A stretch of DNA of 34,352 nt from an uncultured Methanobrevibacter sp. (GTDB lineage: Archaea; Methanobacteriota; Methanobacteria; Methanobacteriales; Methanobacteriaceae): positions 1 through 34,352 of the forward strand of contig CADBHR010000004.1 of assembly GCA_902794475.1 (NCBI GenBank), in the 5' to 3' direction. How positions within the stretch are numbered: position 1 is the stretch's first letter; every line of letters begins with the position of its first letter. This document shows, in pieces, positions 6,134 to 28,518 of the stretch. The notes under the pieces are model-generated. The model was not told where the DNA came from. It saw only the letters and a program-made list of their open reading frames with translations, and did no database searches. The position numbers were made by a program, and so were the translations under genes.

Positions 6134-6172
6134 GGGTTGTTGTTGAGTTCCGTTTAAATGGAGATAGTAGTT

Positions 6173-9100
6173 ATGGATTTAAAATCATTGTGTTTTGTTA
6201 TCCTTTTGCTTTTATTATTGGGAGTTAACTGCGTAGATGCAGGTGAGGTTGACGATAACATTACTTTAACGCATGAAGATGTGGATTTGGAGTTGTCCGA
6301 TGATTCCTTAAAAAGTGATGTCGTCTCCAGTCTGGATGATTCAGGGGATTGTCCAGAAAGTGATGTAGTTGATGCAGTCAGCAATTTAAATGCTTCTGAT
6401 GAGTCTTTGGAAAGTGAAGTGGATGAAATCATAGTCAGCGATTGGGATGAACTGCAGTATTACTGTTCTTTAACAGATAAGGATTATACGCTCAGATTGA
6501 AGGAAAATACTGTTTTTTATCCTTCTGATTTTGATGATGTAAACAAGCAAATCAAAATCAACAATAACGTTAAAATCATTGGCAGTCAGGGTTCATATAT
6601 TGGTGATGTCGCTCCTATTGAGGGAACTTATGAAGATAATATGGACCGTTATGTCAAATACGCTCTTATTGTTGTTCCTGAAAACAACGGATGCGGCATG
6701 AGTGTTGTAAATCTTACTTTTAAATGGGTTCATACATTAAACACCAATGCCGGATTGGTCATGGATTTGGCAGGTAACCGGGAGTATGAGTTTGATAACT
6801 GTATTTTTGATGGTATTCAGTCCATGGCAGGTTCTGCATCTATTATGCATGTTAGGAAAGGCAAGGCGATTTTGAACAATTGTTCCGTCATCAATTGTAC
6901 AGTTGCCAAAGGGTGCATTAACGTTTACAGCAGGCAATCTGTGATTTTGAGGGATTGCTATTTTGCATATAATTATGGCTATGAGCATTCCACCTGTGTC
7001 ATGAACTGGGGTAAGCTTCTAATTTACAATACTAAATTTTATAAGAATCGTTCTCAGGCTTGGGCAGGGGGCATAACCACTTACGGTGAGGGCAACACAA
7101 CAATATATGATTCCAATTTCACTGATAATGTTGCAGGATGGAACGGTGGAGCATTGTATGTTTATAATATCGTAAATATCTATAATACTGTTTTTGTTGG
7201 AAATAACTGTACCACCAACAATGGTGGCGGTGCTATTGGGGCTTGCCAGTACAGTGGTATTCCGAGATTGTATGTTGACGGCTGTTTGTTTAAGGACAAT
7301 AACAATAACTGCTGGGCTTTGGATGAGCTTTCCACTACCGGTACAGGTCGTGGAGGGGCGATTTCTTTTATGGATGTCGGATCCATTGACATTAGAAATT
7401 CCCTGTTCATTGCCAACAGCGCATCTATTGGTACTGCAATCTGTGCCTGGGAAGCCGGAAGTTACGGATCACCCGATATTTATATCACAAATAACACTTT
7501 CATCAATCATACCCGTGCGGGGGACGTTTTGAATGTTAAGGTGATTGGAACTGCCTGCAAGATTTCAGGAAATCATTATATTGGAAATTCCATTGAATTT
7601 TCCTATCTGAATCTAACCACTGTCAATGTAGGTAACGATAAGGCAACATTGAAGATTACAGCTAAAATGTCACATCCTTCATTTTATGAATCAGATATTT
7701 TGGACAGGACTCTTTATGATGTTTATGTTAACGGCAGGTATGCTAAAACGGTAAATTCAACTGTTTTTGATTTGGAGTTTGGTGATTTGGACATCTGCAG
7801 TGTCTATGTCATTCCGACAATTTCCAATGTCAAGTCTAATGAATTGACATTGACAAGCACACGTGAATATGTTTTCATATCTAAAAGCAATGGGGATGAT
7901 AACAACAATGGAAGTTCAAGGTCAGCACCGGTCAGGTCTATTGGAAAGGCTATTGAACTGGCAAGGACTTGTCAAAACATCATTCTTTTGGATGGGGACT
8001 TTTCTGAAAACATTGTCCTGGACTATGATTTGACCTTGAAAGGTGAAAACGATGCCAAGCTAACTAATTTAACATTATTCAACAATAATGCAGTGTTGAG
8101 TTTGAAGAATCTGGAAATTTCCAATCTCTCCGGCAATCTGATTGTGGGAGGCAATGTTTCCCTTTCCAATTGTATTGTTCAAAATAATCAAAAAGAGGTT
8201 GTTTTCAATGCAAGTAATATTGAAATTTCGAATTCAATTATTTTAGATAATCTGAATGTTGCAGTCTGCGATTACATTAATGTAAAAGATTCTATTTTAC
8301 TGAATAACATAAATCTTGTGGATGCCAAATCCTATGATTTGAACTGCAACTGGTGGGGATCCACTTTAGAAAATTACCAAATCCAACCATATGAAGACAT
8401 TGATGCCTGGTTGGTTTTAAATGCTACAGCCAGCACTCGTGATTTGGAAATCAATCAAGTGGCATCAGTCAGTGTTGCATTTTATCTGTTTAAAAACAGT
8501 ACTTCAACCAAATATAATTTCAGGGATATTGAATTAAGTGTCATGCAGGTAAATGGCAGTTCCGTTAATTCGACCCTGTCCAATTCCAATGTCTACTTCA
8601 TGTTGACTGCATTGGGCGATGGTGAGTTGACTTTCAGTTATGAATCCGTTTCAACTTCCGTCAGGTTTAATTTCATCAAATCCAATCCGGATATTCACAT
8701 TTCAAGTGATAATATCATGTTCGGTGATGATTTAATCGTTAAAGTTAACCTGCCAGATGATTTGTCTGGAAATGTCACTGTCAAAGTCGCCAATGTCACT
8801 CAAACGCAATCTGCTAATGGAAATTTGCTTTTCAACTTCACTGATCTTAAAGCGGATGACTATGTGATAACTGTCGTTTATTCAGGTGATGAAAAGTATT
8901 TGGACAAGATAATCCAATCTCCGGTTAATGTTTCTAAGTATGAATCATTCACTCTTTTAACAATCGGGGAAATTGTAGTCGATGATGATTTGCTTTTAAC
9001 AGTCACAGCACCATCAGACTCTAAAGGCAATGTCACAATAACAGTCAACGATAATACTGTAACTTTACAGTTAAACGATTCCAAGGCAAATTACACCATT

Positions 9101-11542
9101 AAAAATATCAGACGTGGTGATTATAGAATCACTGCTGTTTATAATGGTGATGATAAGTATCTCACAAGCAGGGATTACAGATTCATTGAGGTTGATAATC
9201 TCATTTCTTCCATGAGCGTTCATGTTGAGGATATTGTTTATGGCGGTGCAGTCATTGTTGAAGTCATCCTAAATGATAATGCAACAGGCAATCTAACTGC
9301 AGTAATTGGCAAAATCGCCAATTCAAGCATTGTAAAAGACGGCAGGGCAAATATTACTCTTTTAGGCGTTGAAGCCGGATTTAAAGAAGTACATGTCTTT
9401 TACACTGGTGATGACACTTATTTCAACAGGACTGAATCTGCATCATTTACAATCAGCAAGGCTGATTTGACCTTTGAGATATCATCAGCAGATATCATGA
9501 TTGGCCAGGATGCAGTGATATTCATTAAAGTCCCGGCTAAAACCACAGGCAATTTTACAATTAATGGTGATATAATAGCAATTCCCTTATCCGGTACCAT
9601 AAGCTATATCATCCCTGATTTGGAAATCGGTGACTATGACATCACTGCAGTTTATCAGGGCAATAACTATAATATGGTTTCAAATTCCACTTCATTCAGT
9701 GTTCTGGAATATCCGAAAGACCAATGGCCGAACAGTGGCTTTGATGCAAAAAACACCGGCAAATCGCCATATGCCAGTTCAAGCAATGGGGAAATATTGT
9801 TTACAATACCTGTTAATGAAACTATTGTCGGTGATGTTTTAATCGATAATGAGGGCAATATCTACTTTTCAACAGTTGATGCAGTCTATTCTTTTACAGG
9901 TGAAGGTGTTTTGAGGTGGAATTTCACCAATAGGGATGTTATCGGTAATTTTTCAGGCATTTCCATGAGTCGTGAGGTTGTGGTTGTTCCAAAATCCGGA
10001 GACACATTGTTTTTCATCAATCAGAAAACAGGTGAAAAATACGGTTCTTCCAATTTCTATCAGGGGTCAAGTATTTTTTCACCAATAATGGATGATAAGG
10101 CAAATATCTATATTTCAAGCGAATATCAGGTTACAAGCGGTTCTTATAAACTTGTGATTATTCCGTTTAGGTTGTGGGAGTTTGGTGGAACTCCAACTAT
10201 ACTTGATTTGGGTAAAAACGCTCCTCTAACATCTCCGGTAATCGGGGAGGATATTATTGTTGTCCTGACAGATTCCAGATTGTGGGTTATTGATGCCAAG
10301 ACATTAAAAACCAGATTCATCAAATCAGGTGATTGGGGGGCTGTTCGTCCTGTTGTAAATGAAAATATTGTCTATGCGGTTTTGGGTGATTGTGTTGTTG
10401 CATATTCACTGACCGGATCTCAGTTGTGGAAAACCAAGATAATCGGCGGTGCAGGCAATCAATTATTGTTGGATTGCGAGTTCTTATACGCTACAAATTC
10501 CAGAGGCAACCTTTACAGGTATGATCTTTCAAATGGTAAGGAATATCTGGTTTCCAGTTTAAGCATCACTTCAGGTGTTTTGATTGGTTTAAATGATACT
10601 TTATACTTTGGCTGTGATAATCTGTTCTATGCAATCGATTCAAAAGGTGGTGTATTGTGGAAATCCGATTTGGGATCTAAAATCACAGGAAGTCCTGTCA
10701 TGAGCATGGACGGAACAATATATGTGACAAGCGAGGACAATAAGGTCTTCACATTAGCCCATGATGATTTAAGGGATGTGAATATGGAAGCGGAATTCAA
10801 TGACAATACATTGACAGTTACATTGGACAGTCAGGCTACTGGTCACGTTTCATTTACAGTGAATGGTTTAACCTATAATGAAACAGTAACTAACGGTAAG
10901 TTGACTAAATCAATTCCTAATTTAAATGCTGGCAGTTATAATGTCAATGTTGTCTATTCAGGTGATTTGAGGTTCAACGCTTCAATCAAAATTGTTTCAT
11001 TCACAATCAAGGCGGCCCCTCAGGTAAATGTTCCAGCATCAAGTGGAAATGACGTTACCATTTCACTTCCAAGCGATGCAACTGGAACAGTTACAGTTCA
11101 GGCTAACGGCAAGACATACACCAAGGATTTGGTCAACGGTAAGGCTACAGTTACATTGCCTGACGGCAACTACAATGCTGTCATAACCTATTCCGGTGAT
11201 GATAAGTACGATGGCTTTACAATCACCAAGAGGGTTAGTGTCAAAAAGCCTGTTGTCAAGAAGGCTTCCAAAATCACAGCCAAAAAGAAAACCTTCAAGA
11301 AATCCTTGAAAACCAAAAAGTACACTGTAACCCTGAAGTCAGGCAAAACTCCAATCAAGAAAGTTAAATTGATCATTAAGATTGGCAGGAAAACATTCAA
11401 GGCCACCACAAACGCCAAGGGTAAGGCCACCTTCAAAATCAAGAAGCTTACCAAGAAGGGCAGATACACTGCAAAGGTCACCTTCAAGGGAAACAAGTAC
11501 TACAAGGCCACAACCAAAAAAGTCAAAATAGTTTTGAAATAG
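6173..11542 (+). CDS. Giant secreted adhesin-like protein, paralogue of the 479 gene with a different C-terminal tail
   Basis: 1789 aa from the ATG at 6173. An upstream in-frame ATG at 6158 would add MEIVV, but GGAG at 6160-6163 is well spaced for 6173, and MDLKSL resembles the MN(L/F)K starts of the paralogues. The order is signal peptide (about 1-23), acidic segment, conserved DWDELQYYCSLTDKDYTL block (about 89-106), beta-helix with GGAI turns (to about 555), second helix entry (FISKSNGDDNNNG, about 567) ending at NWWGST, four Ig repeats (about 836-1180), PQQ-like propeller (about 1184-1530), two Ig repeats (to about 1691) and a Lys-rich tail (1695-1789). The N-terminal two thirds align with the upstream paralogue, partly at DNA level. 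The tail instead matches those of the 22736 and 28545 genes. A 39-bp gap without a terminator suggests cotranscription with the 479 gene. Surface adhesion is inferred from the architecture only. Confidence 0.9.
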   Translation: MDLKSLCFVILLLLLLGVNCVDAGEVDDNITLTHEDVDLELSDDSLKSDVVSSLDDSGDCPESDVVDAVSNLNASDESLESEVDEIIVSDWDELQYYCSLTDKDYTLRLKENTVFYPSDFDDVNKQIKINNNVKIIGSQGSYIGDVAPIEGTYEDNMDRYVKYALIVVPENNGCGMSVVNLTFKWVHTLNTNAGLVMDLAGNREYEFDNCIFDGIQSMAGSASIMHVRKGKAILNNCSVINCTVAKGCINVYSRQSVILRDCYFAYNYGYEHSTCVMNWGKLLIYNTKFYKNRSQAWAGGITTYGEGNTTIYDSNFTDNVAGWNGGALYVYNIVNIYNTVFVGNNCTTNNGGGAIGACQYSGIPRLYVDGCLFKDNNNNCWALDELSTTGTGRGGAISFMDVGSIDIRNSLFIANSASIGTAICAWEAGSYGSPDIYITNNTFINHTRAGDVLNVKVIGTACKISGNHYIGNSIEFSYLNLTTVNVGNDKATLKITAKMSHPSFYESDILDRTLYDVYVNGRYAKTVNSTVFDLEFGDLDICSVYVIPTISNVKSNELTLTSTREYVFISKSNGDDNNNGSSRSAPVRSIGKAIELARTCQNIILLDGDFSENIVLDYDLTLKGENDAKLTNLTLFNNNAVLSLKNLEISNLSGNLIVGGNVSLSNCIVQNNQKEVVFNASNIEISNSIILDNLNVAVCDYINVKDSILLNNINLVDAKSYDLNCNWWGSTLENYQIQPYEDIDAWLVLNATASTRDLEINQVASVSVAFYLFKNSTSTKYNFRDIELSVMQVNGSSVNSTLSNSNVYFMLTALGDGELTFSYESVSTSVRFNFIKSNPDIHISSDNIMFGDDLIVKVNLPDDLSGNVTVKVANVTQTQSANGNLLFNFTDLKADDYVITVVYSGDEKYLDKIIQSPVNVSKYESFTLLTIGEIVVDDDLLLTVTAPSDSKGNVTITVNDNTVTLQLNDSKANYTIKNIRRGDYRITAVYNGDDKYLTSRDYRFIEVDNLISSMSVHVEDIVYGGAVIVEVILNDNATGNLTAVIGKIANSSIVKDGRANITLLGVEAGFKEVHVFYTGDDTYFNRTESASFTISKADLTFEISSADIMIGQDAVIFIKVPAKTTGNFTINGDIIAIPLSGTISYIIPDLEIGDYDITAVYQGNNYNMVSNSTSFSVLEYPKDQWPNSGFDAKNTGKSPYASSSNGEILFTIPVNETIVGDVLIDNEGNIYFSTVDAVYSFTGEGVLRWNFTNRDVIGNFSGISMSREVVVVPKSGDTLFFINQKTGEKYGSSNFYQGSSIFSPIMDDKANIYISSEYQVTSGSYKLVIIPFRLWEFGGTPTILDLGKNAPLTSPVIGEDIIVVLTDSRLWVIDAKTLKTRFIKSGDWGAVRPVVNENIVYAVLGDCVVAYSLTGSQLWKTKIIGGAGNQLLLDCEFLYATNSRGNLYRYDLSNGKEYLVSSLSITSGVLIGLNDTLYFGCDNLFYAIDSKGGVLWKSDLGSKITGSPVMSMDGTIYVTSEDNKVFTLAHDDLRDVNMEAEFNDNTLTVTLDSQATGHVSFTVNGLTYNETVTNGKLTKSIPNLNAGSYNVNVVYSGDLRFNASIKIVSFTIKAAPQVNVPASSGNDVTISLPSDATGTVTVQANGKTYTKDLVNGKATVTLPDGNYNAVITYSGDDKYDGFTITKRVSVKKPVVKKASKITAKKKTFKKSLKTKKYTVTLKSGKTPIKKVKLIIKIGRKTFKATTNAKGKATFKIKKLTKKGRYTAKVTFKGNKYYKATTKKVKIVLK

Positions 11543-11889: not shown

Positions 11890-14800
11890 ATGAATAATTT
11901 CCAAAGAATTTTCATAGTTTTCTTGGCTATAATTTGCTGCATGTCGATTTCACAGGCATGTGCAATGGATGTTGATTGCAATCGCACTTGTGGCAGTTTG
12001 GATGAGGGTGTTGTTTTAAATGATGCTGAAATTGATGTTAATGATTCATTAAACATTAACAATGATTTGATTGCTTCTTCTAATTATGATTCTCCTTCGG
12101 TTGATTATGGTGAAGGTTACTATAATCAGAGTAACTTGACTGTAATGTTAAATGTTAACGGTGCAAGTTCAGTCAGTTATAGTTGGGATAATGTCAGCTG
12201 GTTTGAATCAAACCAATCTGTTTCTTTTGTTTTAAATCAGGGGATTTATGATTTATATTATGCTGGTGATGGGGAAATATGCTGTCAGCATTATGTTGTT
12301 GACTGTGAAACTCCTGTAGTTTCAAGTAACTTTCAATCAGATTTATATTATAATCCTATTCAGGTAAGCTTATCTTCAATAGATAATTTGGATGTTAATC
12401 CAAGAATTTATTATACTGTTGATGGTTCTGATCCGTTAGAGAATGGTATTTTATATCATGGGTTAATTAATATTTCACAGACCACTAGTTTGAAGTTTTA
12501 TGCGGAAGATTTCGGAGGATTGAGAAGTCCAATTGTTCGTTATAATTATATTTTTGCACGTGTGGGGAATATAAACTCTGGAAAGGGTTTTAGAACAATA
12601 CAGGCCGCTATTGATGACAATGACACGGTTAACGGTGATGTCATATATATTGGTCCATATATATTTTATGGACCAATTTACATAACAAAATCATTGTCAT
12701 TAATTGGCAGGGGAAATCCGGTTATCACATTAAAAGACAACTATCCAACTATCAATTATCCTGGAGGTTATTATAATCAGTCTAATTTGACTATTGAATT
12801 AAGCATTCAAGAAGATGAATACCTGTGGTATAGTTGGGACAATATTGATTGGATTCAGTCATTTGATTCTATTAATTTCACGTTGACTATTGGAGTTTAT
12901 GATTTATATTATGAATGCGGAAGCGAAGTAGTTCATCAACATTATGTAATTGATGATGAACCTCCATTAGTATGGACTAATTACTATACAGATTTATATT
13001 CGTCTCCTATTTTGGTAAATTTGTCCAGTTCGGATAATTTAGATAATAATCCTAAAATCTATTATACTGTTGATGGTTCTGATCCATTGGAGAATGGTAT
13101 TTTATATCAGGGGTTAATTAATATTTCACAGACCACTAGTTTGAAGTTTTATGCTGAAGATTTGGGAGGTTTGAGAAGTTCAATCGTTTGTTATAATTAT
13201 ATTTTTGCACGTGTGGGAAATATAAACTCTGGAAAGGGCTTTAGAACAATACAGGCAGCTATTGATGACAATGATACTGTAGATGGTGATGTTATTTATA
13301 TAGGTCCGGGCATATTTTATGGACCAATCTATCTAACAAAATCCGTATCATTAATTGGCAGAGGAAACCCAATCATTACACTAAAAGAGATTTATCCTAC
13401 CATTAATCATCCTGGCGGCTGTTATAATCAGTCTAATTTGACTATTGAATTAAGCATTCAAGAAGATGAATATCTGTGGTATAGTTGGGATAATATTGAT
13501 TGGATTCAGTCATTTGATTCTATTAATTTCACATTGCCTATTGGAGTTTATGATTTATATTATGAATATGGAAGCGAAGTAATGCATCAACATTACGTAA
13601 TTGATAATAAAGCTCCATTAGCGTGGTGTAATTATTATTCAGATTTATATTCCAATCCTATTTTAGTAAACTTATCCTGTTGGGATAATTTAGATAATGA
13701 TACAAAGATTTATTATACAATTGATGGATCAAATCCTCTGACTAATAGTATTTTATATTCAAATTCAATAAATATAACCTCAACAACTTGCCTAAAGTTT
13801 TATGCAGAAGATTTCGCAGGCCTTAAAAGCAATGTCATTACTTGCAATTACATTTTTGATAATGTTGCCAACATCAATTCAGGAAAAGGATTCAATACAA
13901 TACAATCAGCCATTGATGATGTGGATACTCATGATGGAGACACAATAAAAGTAAAAGAAGGATTATATCAAGAACACGTTACCATTAATAAACATTTGAA
14001 CCTGATTGGTTACAATGCAACCCTAAAAGGTTCATCATCCGTTAATCCGGTCATTGGAGTTACAAATGCTGGAAGCAACAGTATTGTATACGGTTTTAAT
14101 ATTGTCAATTCCACTTTTGGCGTTGTCATTTTAAATGCATGCAATGTTTCAATAATGGGTAATACTTTTTTAAATCTTCACAGTTCCATTGAAACAGATG
14201 GGGATGTGAATTCATTAATTGCATACAATACAATTGATTGTGACCATTATATTGGAGGAATGTCCGGTTTCACAATTAGAAAGTCAGATAATTTAACAAT
14301 ATTCAACAATACAATTTCACTAAACTCCAATGATGATTCTGTAGGCATTATCATCACGGATGGCACTTCCGATAATATTTCAATAACCAAAAATAAAATA
14401 TTAAGTAAAAATTCTTTAAAGGGCATTGGTGTGTATGTGACCTGCTCAAATATCTCCATAGAGCATAATACCATATCTAATTTTACTGCTGCTTTAGTTA
14501 TATCCTCATCCAATTCATCAATATATAATAATTGTTTAAATGATAATGGTTATGGATTATTTTTACGTCGTTCCATAAACAATACCTATAAATCAAACAA
14601 TATCTTTAATAATCTTTATGGTGTTTTTTTACATCATGCTCTTGAGTCTCATGATGATTCATTTTATTTGAACCGTTTATGTGATAATTATTATTATGAT
14701 TTCTTCTCACAGGCAACCTGCACTTATGACATTGGCGATAATTGGTGGGGCGATAATACTCCAATGATTTCAACTAACCAGTATGTGCTTGCCAATGTGT

Positions 14801-17082
14801 TTAATGCTACTGGAAATTTAATTATGAATTCATGGATTGTGATGAATCTTTTTTCAGCATCATATACCATTGATGACAATAGTTTTGTTCAAAGAGCACA
14901 ATTCTATCTGGACATGACCTGCAATAACATAGGTGGGGATTTATCATATGAGGGTTATCTTCCGGATGGTTTGGAGGCATTGATTTACTGCTTTAATAAT
15001 GATGCAAATTACAAATATAATGTTAGTTACTTAAAACAGGGAAAAGCCTTTGTTGATTTTGAGTTAAGTGATTTATTCTGCAATTGGGAAAACATATATG
15101 TTGTTTCACATTTGGATTATGGAAACGTTACCCGCACATTCAATAAAAAAGCCACAATCGACATTACTTTATTTTCATCAGCCGAAGATGTTGATACTGA
15201 ATGGTTTGTAAACTACACCACTTCCATTGATTTTACTGATAATATTTATTGGATTACTGTTAGCTGGTCTGAAACCACACTATACTCAGGCACAATCAAT
15301 CTGATTGTCAACGGAGAAATCATCCAATCATTTAACATCACCAATCTCTTTTATCAGACTTATAAGAATAATTATAGTAGCAATGTTTTTGAAGCCATTA
15401 AGTTTTTAAATAATGTTTTTGCAAGTATGAAAGAGGGAGTATGGCAACCTAATGGATATTATGATAGTTTTGCGGAGTATGCAGGCATTGACCCTGCAGA
15501 TGATGAACTGGTTTATTCCACTTTCCTGAATTATCTTCAATTAGCATATAATTTAACTGACGATGAATTAAATTTTGTTCACACCCATAAAATGCTTTTT
15601 ATTGACATGATTGAGACACACATTGACTATCATGGTGATATTACACCTGACATCAATTTTGAATATGGTGGATGTAATGTTTTGTTGTCACCTCCGTCTG
15701 GTTATGTAGACCGTATAAGTAATATTTATTATACTGACATTGAGGATGAGAATAATGAAAGCATTGGATATGAAGGTATGCGCAGTTTTGCAATAGCTAA
15801 AAGCAATGTGACAGATGATGATTTAAGGTACTGGTTGAATCAAAAGGAATATTATGCTCCTGGTTTGATGAAAGCTGCTTATGGTACTTTTTTAACTCCT
15901 TTGCTTGTTATTTATGAAAATGATCGTGTGGCTGATGATGCGGCTGAAAAATTTAATGTGACTTGGAGTCGTATCAGTCCAGTTTGTGTTTCACTATGCA
16001 ATGACTATAATTGCTTGTATATTACAGGAGAGTCTGATCATCTTATGGGTCGTGAAGCCATAGGAAACAGTAGTAGTGTTTGGAAGTTTAACTTTGCAAC
16101 CAGTTTTAGCTTCAGTCTAGTGGAGCAGTTGGTTGGAAATAATGTCTGGAATACTACTGTGATTGGAAGTGTTACTTTAGGTTTGCTTGAAAGTTATCTG
16201 AATAATGAAACTTTAGAGATAATTACCGGCAGTGGTTATACAGTCATTAAGCGTGAAGGCGATAATGGTACTTTGTTGATTTTAGAGGATGAAACAGGCA
16301 TTGTACACGATTACTTTAGTTTTTATGGTTTATTGGGAACAATGCCATGTTACCATGATGATGTTAGTGATGATACTTGGGGTTATGGGGATAGTATTTT
16401 AGATAAATTAAGTGAGGAGTATAAAGATTTAAAGAATATTTTTAGTATCAGTATTTTGTCTTCAGTGTTTGTTGAAGGAGGAGCCGTGGTTTTAGAAGGG
16501 GTAACTGGTCTTTCATTAGGAGCTGCTGCACTCATTGCCATTCCATTATTTATTATTCTTTGCCCTGATGAGGCAAATGAACTTTGGAAAGAATTATGTT
16601 ATTTAGTAAATCCAAACTATAAGGATTATCCGAATATTACAATTTATGAAGGAATTGATTATAATACTCAAAAATTATTTGATAAACCTCCTGTAATTTT
16701 AGTATTGAATGGCCAATCATTAGATGAATATATTATTTCACATTATAAATCAAATCCAAATCCTAAAAAAGATAAGCAAACAATTAAAAATTACAATGCT
16801 AAATTAAATCATGATAAAAATATGAATTTACCACTTTATTTCACTGCGGTTGGAGGAGATTCTGATGATTCTGATCCTGGAAATTGGACTAATGTTGGAA
16901 AATATGTTAAAGATATTTTAAATGATTTTAATTCATTAGAAACAACTTCTGAAAAGGTTACATTCTTAAAATCTCATCTTCATGAATTATTAACATTATC
17001 TTTAGCTGTAGAAGCTTCTGAATCGATATTTGTTATTATTTATTCATTAATAATTTGGTTATTAAATCATATGGACGAATAG
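11890..17082 (+). CDS. Giant secreted protein with three 217-residue tandem units, NosD-like beta-helix and unrecognised C-terminal region
   Basis: 1730 aa. The signal peptide is about 1-25 (cleavage after ACA). Residues about 73-717 are three tandem units. Each has an aromatic-rich segment (YNQSNLTIEL, SWDNIDW), a CHB_HEX_C/Fn3-associated-like domain (IYYTVDGSDPLENG, LKFYAED) and a pectin-lyase-like helix entry (GKGFRTIQAAIDDND). The third unit runs into a NosD/CASH-type beta-helix ending at DNWWGDNTP (about 950). The remaining 770 residues are unlike the other proteins here. They lack Ig repeats and a Lys-rich tail, are rich in D, N, Y and aromatic residues, contain a Gly/Ala hydrophobic stretch (about 1527-1560) and end in a short hydrophobic helix (SIFVIIYSLIIWLL) that may anchor or insert in a membrane. 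I do not recognise this region. The last few hundred bases look more AT-biased than the rest of the gene. The downstream TPR gene starts 14 bases after the stop. Confidence 0.88.
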   Translation: MNNFQRIFIVFLAIICCMSISQACAMDVDCNRTCGSLDEGVVLNDAEIDVNDSLNINNDLIASSNYDSPSVDYGEGYYNQSNLTVMLNVNGASSVSYSWDNVSWFESNQSVSFVLNQGIYDLYYAGDGEICCQHYVVDCETPVVSSNFQSDLYYNPIQVSLSSIDNLDVNPRIYYTVDGSDPLENGILYHGLINISQTTSLKFYAEDFGGLRSPIVRYNYIFARVGNINSGKGFRTIQAAIDDNDTVNGDVIYIGPYIFYGPIYITKSLSLIGRGNPVITLKDNYPTINYPGGYYNQSNLTIELSIQEDEYLWYSWDNIDWIQSFDSINFTLTIGVYDLYYECGSEVVHQHYVIDDEPPLVWTNYYTDLYSSPILVNLSSSDNLDNNPKIYYTVDGSDPLENGILYQGLINISQTTSLKFYAEDLGGLRSSIVCYNYIFARVGNINSGKGFRTIQAAIDDNDTVDGDVIYIGPGIFYGPIYLTKSVSLIGRGNPIITLKEIYPTINHPGGCYNQSNLTIELSIQEDEYLWYSWDNIDWIQSFDSINFTLPIGVYDLYYEYGSEVMHQHYVIDNKAPLAWCNYYSDLYSNPILVNLSCWDNLDNDTKIYYTIDGSNPLTNSILYSNSINITSTTCLKFYAEDFAGLKSNVITCNYIFDNVANINSGKGFNTIQSAIDDVDTHDGDTIKVKEGLYQEHVTINKHLNLIGYNATLKGSSSVNPVIGVTNAGSNSIVYGFNIVNSTFGVVILNACNVSIMGNTFLNLHSSIETDGDVNSLIAYNTIDCDHYIGGMSGFTIRKSDNLTIFNNTISLNSNDDSVGIIITDGTSDNISITKNKILSKNSLKGIGVYVTCSNISIEHNTISNFTAALVISSSNSSIYNNCLNDNGYGLFLRRSINNTYKSNNIFNNLYGVFLHHALESHDDSFYLNRLCDNYYYDFFSQATCTYDIGDNWWGDNTPMISTNQYVLANVFNATGNLIMNSWIVMNLFSASYTIDDNSFVQRAQFYLDMTCNNIGGDLSYEGYLPDGLEALIYCFNNDANYKYNVSYLKQGKAFVDFELSDLFCNWENIYVVSHLDYGNVTRTFNKKATIDITLFSSAEDVDTEWFVNYTTSIDFTDNIYWITVSWSETTLYSGTINLIVNGEIIQSFNITNLFYQTYKNNYSSNVFEAIKFLNNVFASMKEGVWQPNGYYDSFAEYAGIDPADDELVYSTFLNYLQLAYNLTDDELNFVHTHKMLFIDMIETHIDYHGDITPDINFEYGGCNVLLSPPSGYVDRISNIYYTDIEDENNESIGYEGMRSFAIAKSNVTDDDLRYWLNQKEYYAPGLMKAAYGTFLTPLLVIYENDRVADDAAEKFNVTWSRISPVCVSLCNDYNCLYITGESDHLMGREAIGNSSSVWKFNFATSFSFSLVEQLVGNNVWNTTVIGSVTLGLLESYLNNETLEIITGSGYTVIKREGDNGTLLILEDETGIVHDYFSFYGLLGTMPCYHDDVSDDTWGYGDSILDKLSEEYKDLKNIFSISILSSVFVEGGAVVLEGVTGLSLGAAALIAIPLFIILCPDEANELWKELCYLVNPNYKDYPNITIYEGIDYNTQKLFDKPPVILVLNGQSLDEYIISHYKSNPNPKKDKQTIKNYNAKLNHDKNMNLPLYFTAVGGDSDDSDPGNWTNVGKYVKDILNDFNSLETTSEKVTFLKSHLHELLTLSLAVEASESIFVIIYSLIIWLLNHMDE
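12106..14040 (+). repeat. Three in-frame tandem units with a 651-bp period
   Basis: The segment beginning TCTAATTTGACTATTGAATT occurs at 12781 and 13432, and the segment GATGGTTCTGATCC at 12421 and 13072. Both pairs are exactly 651 bases (217 codons) apart. Units 2 and 3 are nearly identical over their first part (about 12769-12915 against 13423-13569). Units 1 and 2 are nearly identical over their middle (about 12405-12610 against 13056-13261). The end of unit 3 and the start of unit 1 have diverged. This mosaic suggests recent unequal crossing-over or conversion inside the gene. Confidence 0.9.
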
Positions 17083-17096
17083 GGAAGTTAAATCAA

Positions 17097-17996
17097 ATGT
17101 TTAAAAAACGTATGTCTAATAATTTACTTAAAAAAGCAGAATATTATTCTGATAGGTTTGAAAATGAAAAGGCAATTAATTATCTTGATAAACTTCTAAT
17201 CATTGATGGAAATAATATTGATGGTTGGTTGTTGAAGGGTTTGTGCCATGCATTTCTATTTCAAAAGGAAGAGTCGTTCAGATGCTTTGATAAGGCCTTA
17301 AAAATAGATTCCAATAATTTGAATGTTCATCTCAAAAAAGGGGTGGCTTGTTATCATATGGGGGAATATGAATTGGCAATCGATTCGTTCAATCAGATAA
17401 TAGAACATATTCCGGATGAAACTTTCTCATTGAATAAAATCGGATCATGTTACCTCTATTTGGAAAAGTATGATTTGGCTTTGAGCTATTTCAATAAGGT
17501 TTTGGAGATTGACAGTGAAGATTCTGACGCTTTGCTTAATATGGGATTATATTACAATGATTTGGAAATGTATGATGATGCTTTAATCTACTTGGATAAA
17601 TGTATTGAAATCCAACCGAATGACGGAGCCGCATTATTGCAGATGGCAAACATCTATAAAAACAAACAGGATTATCATAATGCATTGAGATATGTCAATC
17701 AGGCTCTTGGCCAAAATCCTAATGATTTGATGCTTCAATTAACAAAAAATCTGCTATTGTCCAATATTGGTGAATTTGAAGAATCAGTAAAGGGATTTAA
17801 AAGTATTTCACTAGAAGGCATTGATAATTATGGTTTAATAAGCATGTACTATATTTATTATGGCCAAGCTTTGCAGACAATGGGAAAGAATGATGATGCG
17901 TTAGGACTGTATGATGAGTATTTGACTGAATATGATCGGTTTCCTAAAGATGGGATTATTGCTGAAAGGGATAAGGTTTTAGGCCAAATGCATTAA
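17097..17996 (+). CDS. Cytosolic tetratricopeptide-repeat protein
   Basis: 299 aa from the ATG at 17097. AGGGAAG at 17081-17087, overlapping the stop codon of the previous gene, is a suitable ribosome binding site. An in-frame TTG at 17055 would overlap the previous gene and lacks such a site. The protein has about seven to eight consecutive TPR-like helix pairs (for example LKKGVACYHMGEYELAIDSF, LNKIGSCYLYLEKYDLALSY, LLNMGLYYNDLEMYDDALIY). There is no signal peptide and no membrane segment, so it should be cytosolic. TPR domains act as protein-protein scaffolds. The tight spacing to the 11890 gene suggests translational coupling, and a hairpin terminator follows. The partner is unknown; regulation, chaperoning or protection linked to the large upstream protein is possible but only inferred. 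Confidence 0.88.
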   Translation: MFKKRMSNNLLKKAEYYSDRFENEKAINYLDKLLIIDGNNIDGWLLKGLCHAFLFQKEESFRCFDKALKIDSNNLNVHLKKGVACYHMGEYELAIDSFNQIIEHIPDETFSLNKIGSCYLYLEKYDLALSYFNKVLEIDSEDSDALLNMGLYYNDLEMYDDALIYLDKCIEIQPNDGAALLQMANIYKNKQDYHNALRYVNQALGQNPNDLMLQLTKNLLLSNIGEFEESVKGFKSISLEGIDNYGLISMYYIYYGQALQTMGKNDDALGLYDEYLTEYDRFPKDGIIAERDKVLGQMH

Positions 17997-18591: not shown

Positions 18592-19779
18592 ATGAAGATA
18601 ATGCCGGTTTCAATGCCGAAGGATATAGACAAATACTTTTTCAACAGGGTGAAGGATATCAACATGATAAATACTCAGCTGTCAACGGTCCGATTAGATA
18701 TTCCCCCTCAACTGTTGATTACAGGATATCGTGGTGTGGGCAAGACATTTCTTCTTAAAAAGGTATTGAATGACCAAAGCGAGGACATACTGACCTCATT
18801 CATTGACATATCCGAAATTGTCGGAAGGCAAAAGGGAAACCTCACCGAGGAGAAGGTGCTTAAGGAAATCTTGAATTCCATAAACGAAACAATGTCTAAA
18901 GACAAGAAATCATACAAAAAATGGATTGATAAGATAACCGGACATGTCAAAAGACTGCAATTGAAAAATTATGATTTTCCGGGAGATGCGAATATAATGG
19001 ACATACCGATTCCAGTAATCCATGACAATTATGACAAGCTTTCCAAATTTGTAATGGAGCTTCCCCAAAAAATCGTTGATGAGTCAAAAGACATAAAAGG
19101 ATATATAATAGTAATCGATGAGTTCCAACTATTAAAAAACGTTAAAAAACCTGATGCATTCTTTTGGCTAATCAGAAGCTTTGTTCAAAAGCAGTTCAAT
19201 GTAGGTTATGTCTTCACAGGTTCCGTTTCAAAAACTTCAGATATAATCAACATGATCAACGGTCAGGAAGGAGCATTCGGAGGAAGATTGATACAGATAA
19301 ATATCGAGCCGTTCACAGCTGACGAGACAAGAAGATACATCGAGGAAAAATCAAATAACTTAAAATTCACAAATGAGGGTTTCGAAAGATTTTACGCATG
19401 CACACGAGGAATCCCTCTGTATATAAATAGTCTCTCATCAGTTCTGCCTAACAACACAATATGTGATGAGGAAATCATCAAACAAACTCTCAAGTTTAAC
19501 ATTGACCAGGTCGCTATGATGTGGATTTATGTTTGGGGGAGGTTAAGCGAGGGAGAAAAGGATTTCATAATATATCTTCTGGAGCATGAAGGCTCAAATA
19601 GAGTTGATTTGGATAATGAGCTGGGTTATGCGAAATCCAGCATAACAAGATTCATAGATTCACTTTCCAATCAGGGAATAATCGAATTCAATCGTGAAAG
19701 GAAATTTGTCCTTGCAGACAAGATGCTTGAAAGATGGTTGAAAACCAAGTATGAAACCAATGGTTTCTATCCTTTATAA
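18592..19779 (+). CDS. Archaeal AAA-type ATPase (ATPase_2-like) with C-terminal winged-helix-like region
   Basis: 395 aa. Walker A GYRGVGKT is at 45-52 and Walker B YIIVIDEF at about 171-178. A sensor-like VFTGSVSK follows near 207 and RGIPLYIN near 272. The C-terminal part (about 320-395) looks like a winged helix (LDNELGYAKSSITRFIDSLSNQGIIEF). This layout fits the archaeal ATPase_2 group (PF01637, STAND/MNS-like ATPases). Members are widespread and often expanded in methanogens, and their function is mostly unknown. The start at 18592 is the first in-frame ATG. MPVSMPK at 18601 is an alternative, and neither has a strong ribosome binding site. Operator-like repeats lie directly upstream, so autoregulation through the C-terminal domain is possible but inferred. 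It has no signal peptide and is expected to be cytosolic. Confidence 0.88.
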   Translation: MKIMPVSMPKDIDKYFFNRVKDINMINTQLSTVRLDIPPQLLITGYRGVGKTFLLKKVLNDQSEDILTSFIDISEIVGRQKGNLTEEKVLKEILNSINETMSKDKKSYKKWIDKITGHVKRLQLKNYDFPGDANIMDIPIPVIHDNYDKLSKFVMELPQKIVDESKDIKGYIIVIDEFQLLKNVKKPDAFFWLIRSFVQKQFNVGYVFTGSVSKTSDIINMINGQEGAFGGRLIQINIEPFTADETRRYIEEKSNNLKFTNEGFERFYACTRGIPLYINSLSSVLPNNTICDEEIIKQTLKFNIDQVAMMWIYVWGRLSEGEKDFIIYLLEHEGSNRVDLDNELGYAKSSITRFIDSLSNQGIIEFNRERKFVLADKMLERWLKTKYETNGFYPL

Positions 19780-22694: not shown

Positions 22695-22728
22695 GAGAGC
22701 ATTTATATAAAAATTCTCTCTCTTTTTT
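22695..22728 (+). terminator. Weak hairpin with T-run after the 21108 gene
   Basis: GAGAG (22695-22699) can pair with CTCTC (22716-22720), followed by six Ts (22723-22728). The loop of this element is the TATA box of the next gene, so termination and initiation signals are superimposed. Confidence 0.5.
22702..22709 (+). promoter_or_regulatory. TATA box of the 22736 gene
   Basis: TTTATATA is a textbook archaeal TATA box. Its centre is about 30 bases before the ATG at 22736, which places the expected transcription start within a few bases of the start codon. Confidence 0.6.
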
Positions 22729-22735
22729 GATTTTT

Positions 22736-25408
22736 ATGAGTATTAAACATGTTTTTATTTTGATATTGCTAATTTCAATTATTTTTTCACTTAATTCGAT
22801 TGCAGCTACAGAATTAAATGGAACTGATAATTCAGTTGAATCAAAAATAATTTCTGATGATAATTCTTTTGAAATTTCTGAAAATAATGCATTATTAGAA
22901 AACTCATTATCTAACTCTATTTCTTCAAAAAATGATGATGTAGTTTATAATTCTTTATCTGAAGATATTTCATTGGAATCTGATGAATATACGATTCATG
23001 TTGGTAAAAATATCACAAAAGATGGTAATGGTTCTAGTGAAAATCCTTATGCAACTTTTGACTTGGCATGTAGTGATGTAAGTAGTGGAAAAGGCAACGT
23101 TATTATAAATGTTGAGGAGGGTACTTATTATTTGGATTCTCCATTAATATTCAATGTAAATAATCTTCATATAATTGGAATTAATAAAAATGTTTGTATT
23201 AAGTATAGGGAAAGTACAAAACTTCAATTTTTCAGTATTTCGTCACCAATGGGTAATTTTACAATGGATAATATTTTAATAGATGTTTCAGATAATCCCG
23301 CTGTCAATATTAATGGAAATTTTAAGTTTAATATCTATAAAGGAGATGCCAATTTAGTTACATTTAACAATTGTACTTTCAAAAATTTTTTAGAATTATT
23401 GCCTTATGAATTAGATGAATATGATATGTCCTTATTAACAGAACCCTATGAATTTAATAATTGTAATTTTATATATGATGCAGAGGTGTTGACATATTAT
23501 ATGATTGGTGTAGCCGATAGGGATGTCACATTTAATAATTGCCGATTTAATTTTGAATTCAGTTTTATATATAATCGGAAAGATCCTTCATTTTCTGCAG
23601 GGTATTCTGGTAAATTAACTGGACACAATACACTGTTCAACGATTGCTGGTTTGGTTTAAATGGATTACCTTCTGTTTTTTATGATAATGGTAAAGAAGA
23701 TGATGGTTATGATATTGGTAGGTATGCAATTTTTTCTATTTCTGAAAATTATTTAGGTAATAATGAATACGAAATTATTGGCAAATTAATATGGAATGAT
23801 GGAACTACTGATGGGATTGAGAAATTAAATCCTATGATTGTTAATTTATCATCAAATACAGGTATTTTAAATCAAAAAACAGTAACTTTAGAAAATGGTA
23901 CTTTTCAAGTATTGTATACTAGTACTTCAGCTAACAATAAAATTGTTGCATCATTAGACAATGCAGTTGAATCAGTTGAATTCAAAAGTATTAGTATCTC
24001 ATTAGATTCTCCTATTATTAAATATGGAGCAAAACAAAATATTACTGTAACTTTACCAAGTGAATATAATGGGGTCATTTATGTTACTGTTAATGGTAAA
24101 ACTTATAATAAAACTGTAGAAGCTCCTAATTTATCTACAACAATTAATATTACTGATGTTTTGCCTGTTGGAACCCATCCAGTAAATGTCACTTTCAATG
24201 ACAACAAGCAAAATGATCCAACACAGGCTATTTATGGTTTCAACACAACAACAATAACTGTTTTAGGACTCCCATATGAATTTAATGCAACAGTTCCTGA
24301 AACTCTTTATCTAGGGGATAATGCAACTGTAACTCTTAAATTACCTGAAGGAGCTACTGGAAATATAACTGTTAAAGTAGGTGAAAATGAAGCAAAAACA
24401 TTTAATATTACTGATACTATCAGTATTGGTGGATTTGTTGTTGGAGATAATATAGTTAACATTACATATAATGGTAACGAACAATATGAGTCTCAAAGCA
24501 TTGAAAAACATGTTTTCGCATCACTTAAACCAACCACACTTACAGCTGACAACGTAACTACTATTTATGGTGTTGCTAAGGATTTAGTTGTTACTTTAAC
24601 TTCCAATGGTAATGTTTTAGCTAATAAAAATATTACTATCATCGTTGGTACTATTAATAAGACTTTACCTACTGATGATAATGGTCAAGTTAGCGTGGAT
24701 ATTTCAACATTAAGTCCAAGTACTTATACTGCAACAATTTCTTTTGAAGGTGATGAATTATACAATAAATCATCTATAACTACTAAAGTTTCCGTAAAAG
24801 AAAATGCAAAAACCGAAAATATCACTCTTCCAGAAATAACAGCCGGAAAAGCAACTACAACAACAATTAAATTACCTGAAAATGCAACTGGAAACATTAC
24901 AGTAAGTATTGATGGAAGCGTTTCAAGTGTGGTTAACCTTACAAATGGTAGTGCAACAATTACTATCCCTGCATTAACTGCAGGAAAACACAACATAACT
25001 ATTGCATACTCTGGTGATGATAAATATGCTGCATTCTCACAAACTTCTACAGTAGAAGTCAAAGAGCCAGCTAAACCAACGCCAAAACCAGAACCAGTAA
25101 AACCAGCTCAAGTCAAAAAACAAGCTACAAAAATAATGGCTAAGAACAAAAAATTCAAAGCAAAAACTAAAGTTAAAAAATACACAATAACTTTGAAAAC
25201 CAAAGCTGGAAAAGCAATTAAAAAAGTGCAAGTTACCATTAAAATAGGTAAAAAAACATACAAAGCAAAAACAAATGCCAAAGGTAAAGCAACCTTTAAA
25301 ATCAAAAAACTAACCAAAAAAGGAAAATACAAAGCAACAATCAAATTTAAAGGAAACAAACTTTACAAAGCATGCAGCAAAAAAGTAAAAATAACAATTA
25401 AAAAATAG
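22736..25408 (+). CDS. Secreted adhesin-like protein: beta-helix, Ig repeats, Pro/Lys linker, Lys-rich tail
   Basis: 890 aa from the ATG at 22736. An in-frame TTG at 22727 lies inside the terminator T-run and is less likely. The signal peptide is about 1-23 (cleavage after SIA). A pectate-lyase-like entry (IHVGKNITKDGNGSSENPYA, about 87-106) leads into a beta-helix to about 330. A module around YEIIGKLIWNDGTTDGIEKL (about 345-417) is shared with the next gene. Ig-like repeats occupy about 420-595, a Big_1-like repeat with TDDNG about 595-687, and another Ig repeat with YSGDDKYA about 694-777. A Pro/Lys linker (KPTPKPEPVKPAQVKK) precedes the Lys-rich tail (about 793-890). The tail protein sequence matches those of the 6173 and 28545 genes, but its codons are AT-rich. 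No ribosome binding site is visible, which suggests a leaderless mRNA. A surface role is inferred. Confidence 0.9.
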   Translation: MSIKHVFILILLISIIFSLNSIAATELNGTDNSVESKIISDDNSFEISENNALLENSLSNSISSKNDDVVYNSLSEDISLESDEYTIHVGKNITKDGNGSSENPYATFDLACSDVSSGKGNVIINVEEGTYYLDSPLIFNVNNLHIIGINKNVCIKYRESTKLQFFSISSPMGNFTMDNILIDVSDNPAVNINGNFKFNIYKGDANLVTFNNCTFKNFLELLPYELDEYDMSLLTEPYEFNNCNFIYDAEVLTYYMIGVADRDVTFNNCRFNFEFSFIYNRKDPSFSAGYSGKLTGHNTLFNDCWFGLNGLPSVFYDNGKEDDGYDIGRYAIFSISENYLGNNEYEIIGKLIWNDGTTDGIEKLNPMIVNLSSNTGILNQKTVTLENGTFQVLYTSTSANNKIVASLDNAVESVEFKSISISLDSPIIKYGAKQNITVTLPSEYNGVIYVTVNGKTYNKTVEAPNLSTTINITDVLPVGTHPVNVTFNDNKQNDPTQAIYGFNTTTITVLGLPYEFNATVPETLYLGDNATVTLKLPEGATGNITVKVGENEAKTFNITDTISIGGFVVGDNIVNITYNGNEQYESQSIEKHVFASLKPTTLTADNVTTIYGVAKDLVVTLTSNGNVLANKNITIIVGTINKTLPTDDNGQVSVDISTLSPSTYTATISFEGDELYNKSSITTKVSVKENAKTENITLPEITAGKATTTTIKLPENATGNITVSIDGSVSSVVNLTNGSATITIPALTAGKHNITIAYSGDDKYAAFSQTSTVEVKEPAKPTPKPEPVKPAQVKKQATKIMAKNKKFKAKTKVKKYTITLKTKAGKAIKKVQVTIKIGKKTYKAKTNAKGKATFKIKKLTKKGKYKATIKFKGNKLYKACSKKVKITIKK

Positions 25409-25506: not shown

Positions 25507-28500
25507 ATGAATTTTAAAAGAATTTTTTTTTCAATCTTATTATTATCAATATTAATTTCAATCGTTGGTGTTTCTGCATCTGATGCAAATAATACAACAG
25601 ATATTGTAACTCAATCTAATGAAATTGATTTAACAGAGATTAATGAAGAAGTTAATTTAGAAATTTCACAAGACAATCAAATATTATCTTCACAAGATGA
25701 ACCTACTCGTGTAATTTATGTGGGTCAAAATAAAACAACAGATGGGGGAAACGGAACATCCGATAATCCTTTTGAATCCTTTGAACTTGCATGTAACAAT
25801 TTATCTGGAGAAAATAAAGTAGAAATAAATGTTTACAATGGAACATATTATATAAATTCAAATTTAAAATTTGACACAAATAACCTTTTTATCAGTGGAA
25901 TTGGCAATGTATTAATTAAAAATCTAGAAAATAAAGATGGATGCTATGCCTCTTTTGGTTTAACTTCATCAACTGGAAATTTCACATTTTCTAATCTAAT
26001 ATTTGATGGATCAAACTGCACATCAATATCTTCAGTTTCCATAAATAAACCTTATTTCCATGTTTTTAAAGGAAAAGCAAATTTAGGAACTTTTTATAAT
26101 TGTACTTTCACAGGTTTCACTGATGACATGATGTTTTCCAGTCAATTTAATAGAAAATTCATCCGCTGTAATTTTTTAGATACCTCTTATATTACATTTG
26201 AGAGATGGTACAATGGGTTAATGATTGATTTTGAATATTGTATAATTACAAATTCATTATATTTTGGTCCAATACCATTAACTTATAATCCACGTCTTAA
26301 TCTTACATATAATAATGTATGGCTGGGTTCAAATAGGGTTGATAACTATGTATATTATGAAACATTCGATGCCCAAGGAAAATCTATTCAAGTTGAAGCT
26401 AATTTCGGCAGATATGCAGTTTTTTCAGCATATGAAAACTATTTGGAAAACGATACTTATGAAATCATAGGCAATTTAACATGGAATGATGGAACTGCCG
26501 ATGGAATTGAATTGTTAAATCCGATGGTTGTAACAATTGCAACTAGAACTGGTCAAACATCAAAAGAAACCATTCTAAGAAATGGAACTTTTAAAGAAAT
26601 CTATAAAAGCAATTATCAAGATAATGAAATTGAAATAGAATTAGACTCACAAGAAGTCATACTCGAATTTAAAAATGGGATCCATGTTGTAGCAAATCCG
26701 ATATATGTGGGAGATAATCAAATAATTACTGTAACATTACCTCAGGCTATTAATGCTCCAGTCAACATCACTGTGAATAATAAAACTTATGAAGTCCAGT
26801 CAAAGGGTTCATCAACATTTAATTTCACAGTTCCCGAGGAGTTACCTGCAGGCAAATATCAAGTTGACGTGAAAATAATAGATAACAAGAATCATGTATA
26901 TGGTGTCAATTCAACCAATTGGACAATATCAAAAATAAACAAAAATATAATAATCATCACTCCCGCTAAAAGTTACATTACTGATGCATCCATAAACATA
27001 ACTGTATTATTAGAAAAGGATGCTTCCGGAAACATCACAGTATTTGCCAATGATAAGAACATAACAAAAGAATGCTACGGCAGAAATATTGAAATAGATA
27101 TTTCATCATTACTAAACCCTGATGAAAACGATATCACAGTTGTTTATTCAGGAAATAAAAAATACTTAAATCAGACAAAAGAAGATAAGATATTTGTAAA
27201 TAAAATTTATCCAAATATCAATATCACAACTCCCTCAAAACCTATTATCGGTGATGAAATTAACATTAACATAACATTACCTTTAAATGCTACAGGCAGC
27301 CTAATGGTTTCTGCGGGAGATAAAAGCGTATCCCTCAATAATGTTTCAAATAAAAATACTATAAATATTTCAGATCTATTAAATACTGGTTATAATACGT
27401 TATCCATATATTATTCAGGAGATGATTTCTGGGACAGTCAAATAAAAAAAGAAACAATATATGTGGACAAAATAACTCCAGTAATGAATGTTGAAACCAG
27501 TCAGGATAGTGTTAAAGTCGGAGAAAATATAACTCTGCAAATTTATTTGCCTAAAGAAGTATCCGGCAATTTATCAGTAAATGGAAATTACTTAAATAGG
27601 ACAAATGAACTGACAATAGTTGATATTCCATGCTTGCTTGCAGGAATTACTCAGATTAATGTAACTTATGATGGAAATGACCGTTATCATGGACAATCAA
27701 AGATAATCAATATATCTGTTGAAAAATGGAATATTTCACTTAATGAAATGAAAATAACTGTAACCAATCACACCACTCCAAATTTTATAATAACACTACC
27801 TAGTGAAGTAACAGGTAACATCACCATTAAAGTCAATGACAAAAAATATACAGAATCATTGGTCAATGGCAAAGCTGGCTTGAAAATCTATGACTTAATG
27901 CCAGGCATATATGGTGCAGAGATTATTTATTTAGGAGATGGCAAATTCAATTCATTAAGTACTAATGTCAAGTTTTCCGTCCCTAAACCTGTTCTAAAAG
28001 CTAATGATGTTAATATACTTTATACAAGTGGTTTAAAATATACTGTTTATGTTACTGTCAGTGGAAGTCCAGTTGTTGGAAAAACAGTTACCATAACAAT
28101 CAACGGTAAAAAAACAACTGCAGTAACAGACAATAAAGGACGTGCAAGTGTTAAAATAGACTTGCCACCAAAATCCAGTAAATACACCATTACTGCCGAA
28201 TATCAGGGAGTAAAAATCACTAATAAAGTAAAAGTAAACAGCATTATCCAAGCTAAAAACTTGAAAGTTAAAAAATCCGCAAAGACATTGAAAATTAAAG
28301 TATCTTTAAAGAAAGTAAATGGAAAATACTTGAAAAATAAAAAAATTACTTTAAAATTCAAAGGTAAGAAATACGCTGCAAAAACCAATAAAAAAGGAAT
28401 TGCAATTTTCAAAATCAATAAAAAAGTTATTAAAAAACTTAAAGCAGGTAAAAAGTATAAATATCAAGTCAATTACTTAAAAGATACTGCCAGTAAAAAG

Positions 28501-28518
28501 GTGATTGTTAAAAAGTAA
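25507..28518 (+). CDS. Secreted adhesin-like protein: beta-helix, Ig repeats, Big_1-like module, Lys-rich tail
   Basis: 1003 aa. The signal peptide is about 1-24 (cleavage after VSA). A pectate-lyase-like entry (IYVGQNKTTDGGNGTSDNP, about 70-88) and beta-helix extend to about 310. A YEIIGNLTWNDGTADGIELL module (about 318-390) is shared with the upstream gene. About five Ig-like repeats follow (391-827; motifs YSGNKKYL, YSGDDFW, YDGNDRY, YLGDGKF). A Big_1-like module (LYTSGLKYTVYVTVSGSPVV, about 838-857; TDNKGRAS) leads to a Lys-rich tail of the AKNLKVKKSAKTLKIKV type (about 911-1003). That tail groups with the 479 gene and the fragment at the left edge. GGAGG at 25489-25493 lies 13 bases before the ATG, and AGAG at 25501-25504 is closer. 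It has no membrane anchor. The ligand is unknown. No terminator separates it from the 28545 gene. Confidence 0.9.
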   Translation: MNFKRIFFSILLLSILISIVGVSASDANNTTDIVTQSNEIDLTEINEEVNLEISQDNQILSSQDEPTRVIYVGQNKTTDGGNGTSDNPFESFELACNNLSGENKVEINVYNGTYYINSNLKFDTNNLFISGIGNVLIKNLENKDGCYASFGLTSSTGNFTFSNLIFDGSNCTSISSVSINKPYFHVFKGKANLGTFYNCTFTGFTDDMMFSSQFNRKFIRCNFLDTSYITFERWYNGLMIDFEYCIITNSLYFGPIPLTYNPRLNLTYNNVWLGSNRVDNYVYYETFDAQGKSIQVEANFGRYAVFSAYENYLENDTYEIIGNLTWNDGTADGIELLNPMVVTIATRTGQTSKETILRNGTFKEIYKSNYQDNEIEIELDSQEVILEFKNGIHVVANPIYVGDNQIITVTLPQAINAPVNITVNNKTYEVQSKGSSTFNFTVPEELPAGKYQVDVKIIDNKNHVYGVNSTNWTISKINKNIIIITPAKSYITDASINITVLLEKDASGNITVFANDKNITKECYGRNIEIDISSLLNPDENDITVVYSGNKKYLNQTKEDKIFVNKIYPNINITTPSKPIIGDEININITLPLNATGSLMVSAGDKSVSLNNVSNKNTINISDLLNTGYNTLSIYYSGDDFWDSQIKKETIYVDKITPVMNVETSQDSVKVGENITLQIYLPKEVSGNLSVNGNYLNRTNELTIVDIPCLLAGITQINVTYDGNDRYHGQSKIINISVEKWNISLNEMKITVTNHTTPNFIITLPSEVTGNITIKVNDKKYTESLVNGKAGLKIYDLMPGIYGAEIIYLGDGKFNSLSTNVKFSVPKPVLKANDVNILYTSGLKYTVYVTVSGSPVVGKTVTITINGKKTTAVTDNKGRASVKIDLPPKSSKYTITAEYQGVKITNKVKVNSIIQAKNLKVKKSAKTLKIKVSLKKVNGKYLKNKKITLKFKGKKYAAKTNKKGIAIFKINKKVIKKLKAGKKYKYQVNYLKDTASKKVIVKK

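Follow-up and report, generated by a model that had tools for sequence, protein, structure and literature searches.

Behind an adhesin-like stalk, a very large protein encoded on the 34,352-nucleotide stretch of DNA analysed here (the window, from an uncultured Methanobrevibacter sp.) carries a long C-terminal region, and the locus raises the question of whether this region is one more structural part of a surface protein or an effector. In the rumen and the human gut, methane is made mainly by Methanobrevibacter and its relatives, and little is known of how their strains exclude one another. An earlier note on this DNA had hypothesized that the stalk, a hydrophobic pre-terminal segment, and a distinct C-terminal domain together form the layout of a secreted effector. 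That hypothesis is supported by the sequence comparisons described below, with toxicity itself as a prediction. Homologues with the same stalk and swapped ends, which the note had suggested seeking, were found; their C-termini differ instead of being invariant, the ends switch together with the adjoining gene and also occur as stalk-less cassettes, and searches of the C-terminal region turned up no ordinary structural or adhesive domain. The protein is read here as the probable effector of a polymorphic toxin system, with a rough probability of 0.85.

Architecture of the Protein and Its Surroundings

The gene (11890..17082, + strand) is an intact open reading frame of 1730 amino acids with Pfam domains, and its full-length homologue in genome G098 is 99% identical over residues 968–1730. 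A probable Sec signal peptide, recognized by inspection of the sequence, covers residues 1–25 (11890..11964, +) and ends in ...SISQACA. It is followed by a stalk (11965..14790, +) of three CHB_HEX_C_1/Fn3_assoc-type domains and a NosD-type parallel beta-helix, as identified by Pfam (PF13290, E = 1.1e-42, in three stretches; PF13287, E = 6.7e-36; PF05048, E = 1.3e-10). The NosD stretch finishes at about residue 967, so the region of interest does begin after the NWWG end of the helix, as had been described; the start given for it, 14790, lay one base out of frame, and the in-frame region is 14791–17079, which encodes residues 968–1730 (763 amino acids). Sequence searches of Pfam, NCBIfam, and PDB returned nothing for these residues, and the C-terminal region had no match in a phage collection, a plasmid collection, or viral contigs. 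A single AlphaFold2 model, built on an alignment of three sequences, was uninformative (pLDDT 36).

Several properties that the note had read from the region hold, and one does not. Ig repeats are lacking (no Ig, NosD, or other domain was detected in residues 968–1730), and so is the Lys-rich tail of the large neighbours, which are adhesin-like proteins of very large size with Big_3_5/PQQ_2 domains, clustered on both sides of the toxin-like gene (479–6133, 6158–11542, 22727–25408, 25507–28518, and 28545–33968). A Gly/Ala-rich hydrophobic stretch, placed by the note at residues 1527–1560, was located at about 1530–1559 (16477..16566, +; mean Kyte-Doolittle value 1.92, 33% G+A), and a terminal hydrophobic helix-like segment was recovered at residues ~1703–1721 (16996..17052, +) by hydropathy and in the tail alignment described below. 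Enrichment in Cys, Tyr, and Asp is not a distinguishing mark, since the region contains 1.3, 6.9, and 7.7% of these residues vs. 2.2, 7.9, and 8.0% in its own stalk; Tyr and Asp are above the level of the neighbouring proteins.

A Conserved Core and an Exchanged Tail

The ~770 residues had been taken as one unit, but residues 968–1502 are kept in relatives and only the last ~228 residues (~1503–1730) are swapped. Residues 968–1296 (14791..15777, +) contain no known domain and are 50–90% identical across most blocks to near homologues (L034 and L036–L040, L037 among them). The core, a predicted pre-toxin domain of ~206 residues (1297–1502; 15778..16395, +), was delimited by alignment A2, which covers the conserved part, and is marked by the motif MKAAYGTFL...D..AD.AA...NVTWSR.SP ... 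TGIV.D ... PCY. It has no detectable PDB relative and belongs to no Pfam or NCBIfam family. A sequence search found relatives in 49 of 139 genomes of the same family, and a scan of genome contigs gave two related loci from Methanobrevibacter MAGs; the core profile matches 85 of these 139 genomes and, at phylum level, 96 of 152 from Methanobacteriota, and reaches compact-genome relatives within the same order. In another genus of the family (G114, with L120 and L121; G124, with L122; G112, with L123), up to eight core copies occur per genome, in proteins of up to ~3000 amino acids and with additional tail types (9 and 10). The core was also considered as a cysteine protease, a reading that was dropped because its sole near-invariant Cys, that of PCY, sits at the junction with the tail and no His is invariant.

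The near homologues L034, L036–L040, and L043 align with the protein over both the stalk and the C-terminal region, and identity to most of them drops sharply at residue ~1500, after the PCY motif, from mostly 40–90% before to mostly ~0–40% after. The values against homologues with a type 4 tail are similar; only the near-identical L035 lacks the drop, and L037, which has the window's own tail type, retains 26–50% identity in most tail blocks. The tail of the window (type 1a, residues 1503–1730; 16396..17079, +), a predicted toxin, is delimited by this drop in identity, also put at 60–90% falling to ~15–40%, by its GC content (0.271 vs. 0.367 in the core), and by a profile limited to 8 of the 139 genomes. 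The Gly/Ala-rich segment lies at its start, and most tail types have a comparable hydrophobic segment close to theirs; the alignment of type 1a tails shows a conserved amphipathic or hydrophobic end. As the note had reported, no known toxin motif is evident: 17 tails of 12 types had no convincing match in Pfam, NCBIfam likewise gave none, and the tail-1a profile found nothing credible in the PDB.

The tail is exchanged while the core stays, and tails switch between close cores. In a maximum likelihood tree of 52 cores, tail types 1 and 4 fall inside one strongly supported clade, and 18 changes of tail label are required vs. a minimum of 11, the types having been defined by single-linkage clustering of all tails and of each following gene, which lumps subtypes, in genomes that are mostly drafts. 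Compact-genome relatives likewise carry almost identical cores with tails of either type 0 (followed by a small TM protein) or type 3, the latter with a TPR gene wherever the downstream gene is close.

Tail-Specific Downstream Genes

The ATG of the next gene lies 14 nt past the stop of the toxin-like gene; this gene (17097..17996, +) encodes a TPR protein of 299 amino acids (TPR_1, E = 9.5e-32) with neither a signal peptide nor a TM segment, predicted to be the cognate immunity protein. Tails have type-specific genes immediately downstream, whose predicted immunity role rests on genetic linkage. The type of the tail all but determines the class of its partner, and partner genes usually overlap the stop of the tail gene or begin within ~50 nt of it. 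Tails of types 1 (by clustering), 3 (403–421 amino acids), 5, and 6 have TPR partners, while TM proteins accompany type 2 (up to 5–6 TM segments), type 4 (256–272 amino acids, 4–6 TM), type 7 (107–114 amino acids), and type 8 (239–252 amino acids, 6–7 TM). Where a type 0 tail has a close downstream gene, this nearly always encodes a TM protein of 63–129 amino acids, mostly with 2–5 TM segments, and the partner of most type 0 tails is 63–100 amino acids long with 2–3 TM segments.

Because TPR repeats match one another in general, clustering alone was judged too loose for this class, and the pair formed by tail 1a and its partner (TPR-1a) was tested specifically with bit-score gaps and a profile. 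At 143–601 bits, the TPR protein of the window matched only those beside a type 1a tail and one extra, orphan TPR protein in L036/L033 (60% identity), all remaining TPR proteins scoring ≤94 bits. Tail 1a occurs in 8 and TPR-1a in 8 of the 139 genomes, with both in five (P = 7e-6, a value that ignores relatedness). All seven tail-1a copies whose C-terminal end is complete have TPR-1a directly downstream, the pair in G086 and that on contig C33 of G041 having damaged reading frames; of the three copies that lack it, those in G040 and G047 are truncated and the one in G066 sits at a contig edge. For type 4, the partner membrane protein gene (TM-4, 242–272 amino acids) is immediately downstream on the same strand of 8/8 strong tail matches.

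Type 0 tails, of which many Methanobrevibacter genomes have about one copy, look less polymorphic than types 1–11. A type 0 subfamily of ~1000 amino acids (L160, 5977–8739, on contig C61 of the source genome G000, and L058–L073) is widespread in Methanobrevibacter, usually as one copy per genome and mostly with an adjoining small gene for a protein of 2–5 TM segments, and is possibly a fixed toxin pair that is not polymorphic.

Stalk-Less Cassettes and Arrays of Partner Genes

Tails and partners also occur apart from the surface protein. In L105, L107, L051, L055, L074, and L037, short open reading frames encode the end of the core and a tail, without a signal peptide or stalk, and are followed by the matching partner gene. 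For example, L105 and L107 each have a type 3 frame of 306 amino acids and then a TPR gene; L051 has frames of 317 and 520 amino acids, each followed by a TPR gene; L037 has a tail-1a fragment and a second TPR-1a gene; and L074 has tail 1a and TPR-1a, then a tail-4 fragment and TM-4. Other loci consist of partner genes alone, resembling orphan immunity genes (L155 in G098, L156 in G099, L157 in G100, and L158 in G041), and some of these arrays reach contig ends. The G100 array contains four tandem TPR-1a genes, that of G098 contains TPR-1a, a small TM protein, TM-4 (two copies, one broken), two other TPR genes, and a further TPR-1a, and that of G099 contains TPR-1a, TM-4, and other TPR genes in a genome without a core match. 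The source genome of the window similarly carries a TM-4 gene (contig C70) with no tail 4 detected. Orphan partners are under purifying constraint, with between-genome dN/dS values of 0.21–0.37 for array genes, some of them from very few substitutions.

In G098, an identical 127-base piece of a TPR-1a gene closes both the contig with the toxin gene and the contig with the array; from TPR-1a to the following ATPase gene, the window matches one end of the G098 array at 99% identity. Read most simply, the window is the G098 locus minus the array, which would have dropped out between two TPR-1a copies or been collapsed there during assembly. The ATPase in question is an archaeal AAA protein of the ATPase_2 family, found after the TPR gene in the window (18592–19779) and after the array in L155 (3200–4429); a similar-looking protein of 398 amino acids follows orphan TM-4 genes in L159 (8482–9678), L163, L164, and L162, and a functional link of the ATPase_2 protein with partner genes is possible.

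Proposed Mechanism and Alternative Readings

A sharp junction, tail-partner linkage, tail swapping, cassettes, and arrays together form the genetic pattern expected of a polymorphic toxin-immunity system. In such a system, the protein would probably be exported by Sec and displayed on its beta-helix stalk, and residues 968–1502 would form a conserved pre-toxin or entry region that presents or passes on the ~228-residue tail, with the Gly/Ala hydrophobic segment at the tail start probably aiding membrane entry or crossing. The tail would then harm a neighbouring methanogen on contact, most likely a close relative, and the producer and its kin would be shielded by the TPR protein predicted to neutralize it in the cytosol. 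New variants would arise when recombination replaces the tail and its immunity gene jointly, with orphan cassettes as the source.

Two readings without a toxin were weighed. TPR proteins are frequently chaperones, the tails are hydrophobic, and the stalk is adhesin-like, so the tail could be a membrane or wall anchor or a secretion tag of an adhesin, with the adjoining gene encoding its chaperone (TPR) or membrane assembly partner (TM). Such a display module would leave the many unrelated tail-partner pairs unexplained; orphan tails lacking a signal peptide and stalk could not be displayed, and partners persist under purifying constraint in arrays, including in a genome with no detectable core and hence no client, which makes this reading improbable. 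It is less probable still that the tip diversifies against phages, protists, or host immunity while downstream genes hitch-hike: big adhesin-like surface proteins would be expected targets of phages and hosts, but such variation gives no account of strict one-to-one pairing with non-surface proteins, of partner-only arrays, or of orphan cassettes.

A further alternative is a variant of the toxin reading and differs from it in the target only. The window tail would be a membrane-damaging, ionophore-like toxin with no intracellular enzymatic target, blocked by the TPR protein from the cytosolic face. Its hydrophobic Gly/Ala segment, its C-terminal hydrophobic helix, and the lack of a catalytic motif fit this reading, and the partners of sister tail types are TM proteins, as are those of the ionophores of contact-dependent inhibition (CDI) in E. 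coli (PMC11630599). On the other side, the type 1a partner has no TM segment, and GxxxG or glycine-zipper spacing, a signature like that of the E. coli CDI ionophores, is not enriched over shuffles; we give this variant somewhat less than even odds. Since the TPR partner is cytosolic by sequence, the type 1a tail of the predicted toxin probably has its site of action within the cell or at the inner face of the membrane, and action inside the cell is proposed with moderate confidence. For part of the tail family a membrane target is plausible by analogy, because type 0 partners resemble the two-helix immunity proteins of the E. coli CDI ionophores.

Tails with their partner genes make many "adhesin-like" proteins of unassigned function testable as weapons. 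They would also be a source of new toxin and immunity families, and orphan immunity arrays could serve as markers of strain compatibility.

Comparison With Known Systems

CDI by CdiA-CT/CdiI, above all in its ionophore family, is similar in that a large stalked surface protein has a variable C-terminal region with entry and toxin parts (PMC11630599). E. coli CDI ionophores as a rule pair with membrane immunity proteins of 72–100 amino acids and two helices (PMC11630599), to which the small, hydrophobic type 0 partners are comparable. The present protein differs in having no two-partner secretion domain or CdiB (its Pfam scan gave CHB_HEX_C_1/NosD only) and no VENN in its 1730-residue translation, in an unrelated sequence, and in its host, a one-membrane archaeon. 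Unlike RHS/YD-repeat toxins, it contains no YD/RHS repeats detectable by Pfam. The VARTIG proteins of Thermococcales are archaeal hypervariable surface proteins with variable downstream genes, compared by their authors with polymorphic toxins (PMC8416519); these are Ig-domain proteins with variable downstream Ig genes, whereas the protein described here has no Ig domain in its Pfam scan and belongs to one-to-one tail-partner pairs.

Bacterial polymorphic toxins, in the sections of the survey considered here, combine a constant presenting part, a swapped C-terminal toxin, a 3' immunity gene, cassettes, and polyimmunity loci (Zhang et al., 2012; PMC3482391). The present family matches this outline with its constant stalk part, swapped tail, immediate 3' partner gene, stalk-less cassettes, and multi-gene partner loci. 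It differs in its archaeal host and beta-helix/CHB_HEX stalk, in a core outside Pfam and NCBIfam, in having no known trafficking, protease (no known processing domain was detected), or toxin domain, and in TPR as its main predicted immunity fold; the same sections show TPR only within toxin proteins, in the form of repeats, or in fusion with other immunity domains (Zhang et al., 2012).

For archaea, these sections name Methanosarcina as a host of RHS toxins, a few methanoarchaea as hosts of barnase-like systems, and haloarchaea as carriers of toxins delivered by PVC (Zhang et al., 2012), and a full-text literature search for "polymorphic toxin" and Methanobrevibacter found RHS proteins mentioned for one Methanococcus strain. 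The existence of polymorphic toxins in archaea was predicted by Makarova et al. (2019; mBio e00715-19), as represented in works citing that paper, and the present system would be of the same kind. No description of this core or of its tail-partner pairs was found in the literature compared; the paper of Makarova et al. (2019) stands outside that comparison and may already include the family. Methanobacteriales may have a polymorphic-toxin lineage of their own that descends from no known bacterial delivery family, with a new core that carries about a dozen uncharacterized tail types across the envelope and with immunity by TPR and membrane proteins; we place this close to an even chance, just short of it, and if true, a system of strain discrimination of this sort would be present in many methanogens of the gut and rumen.
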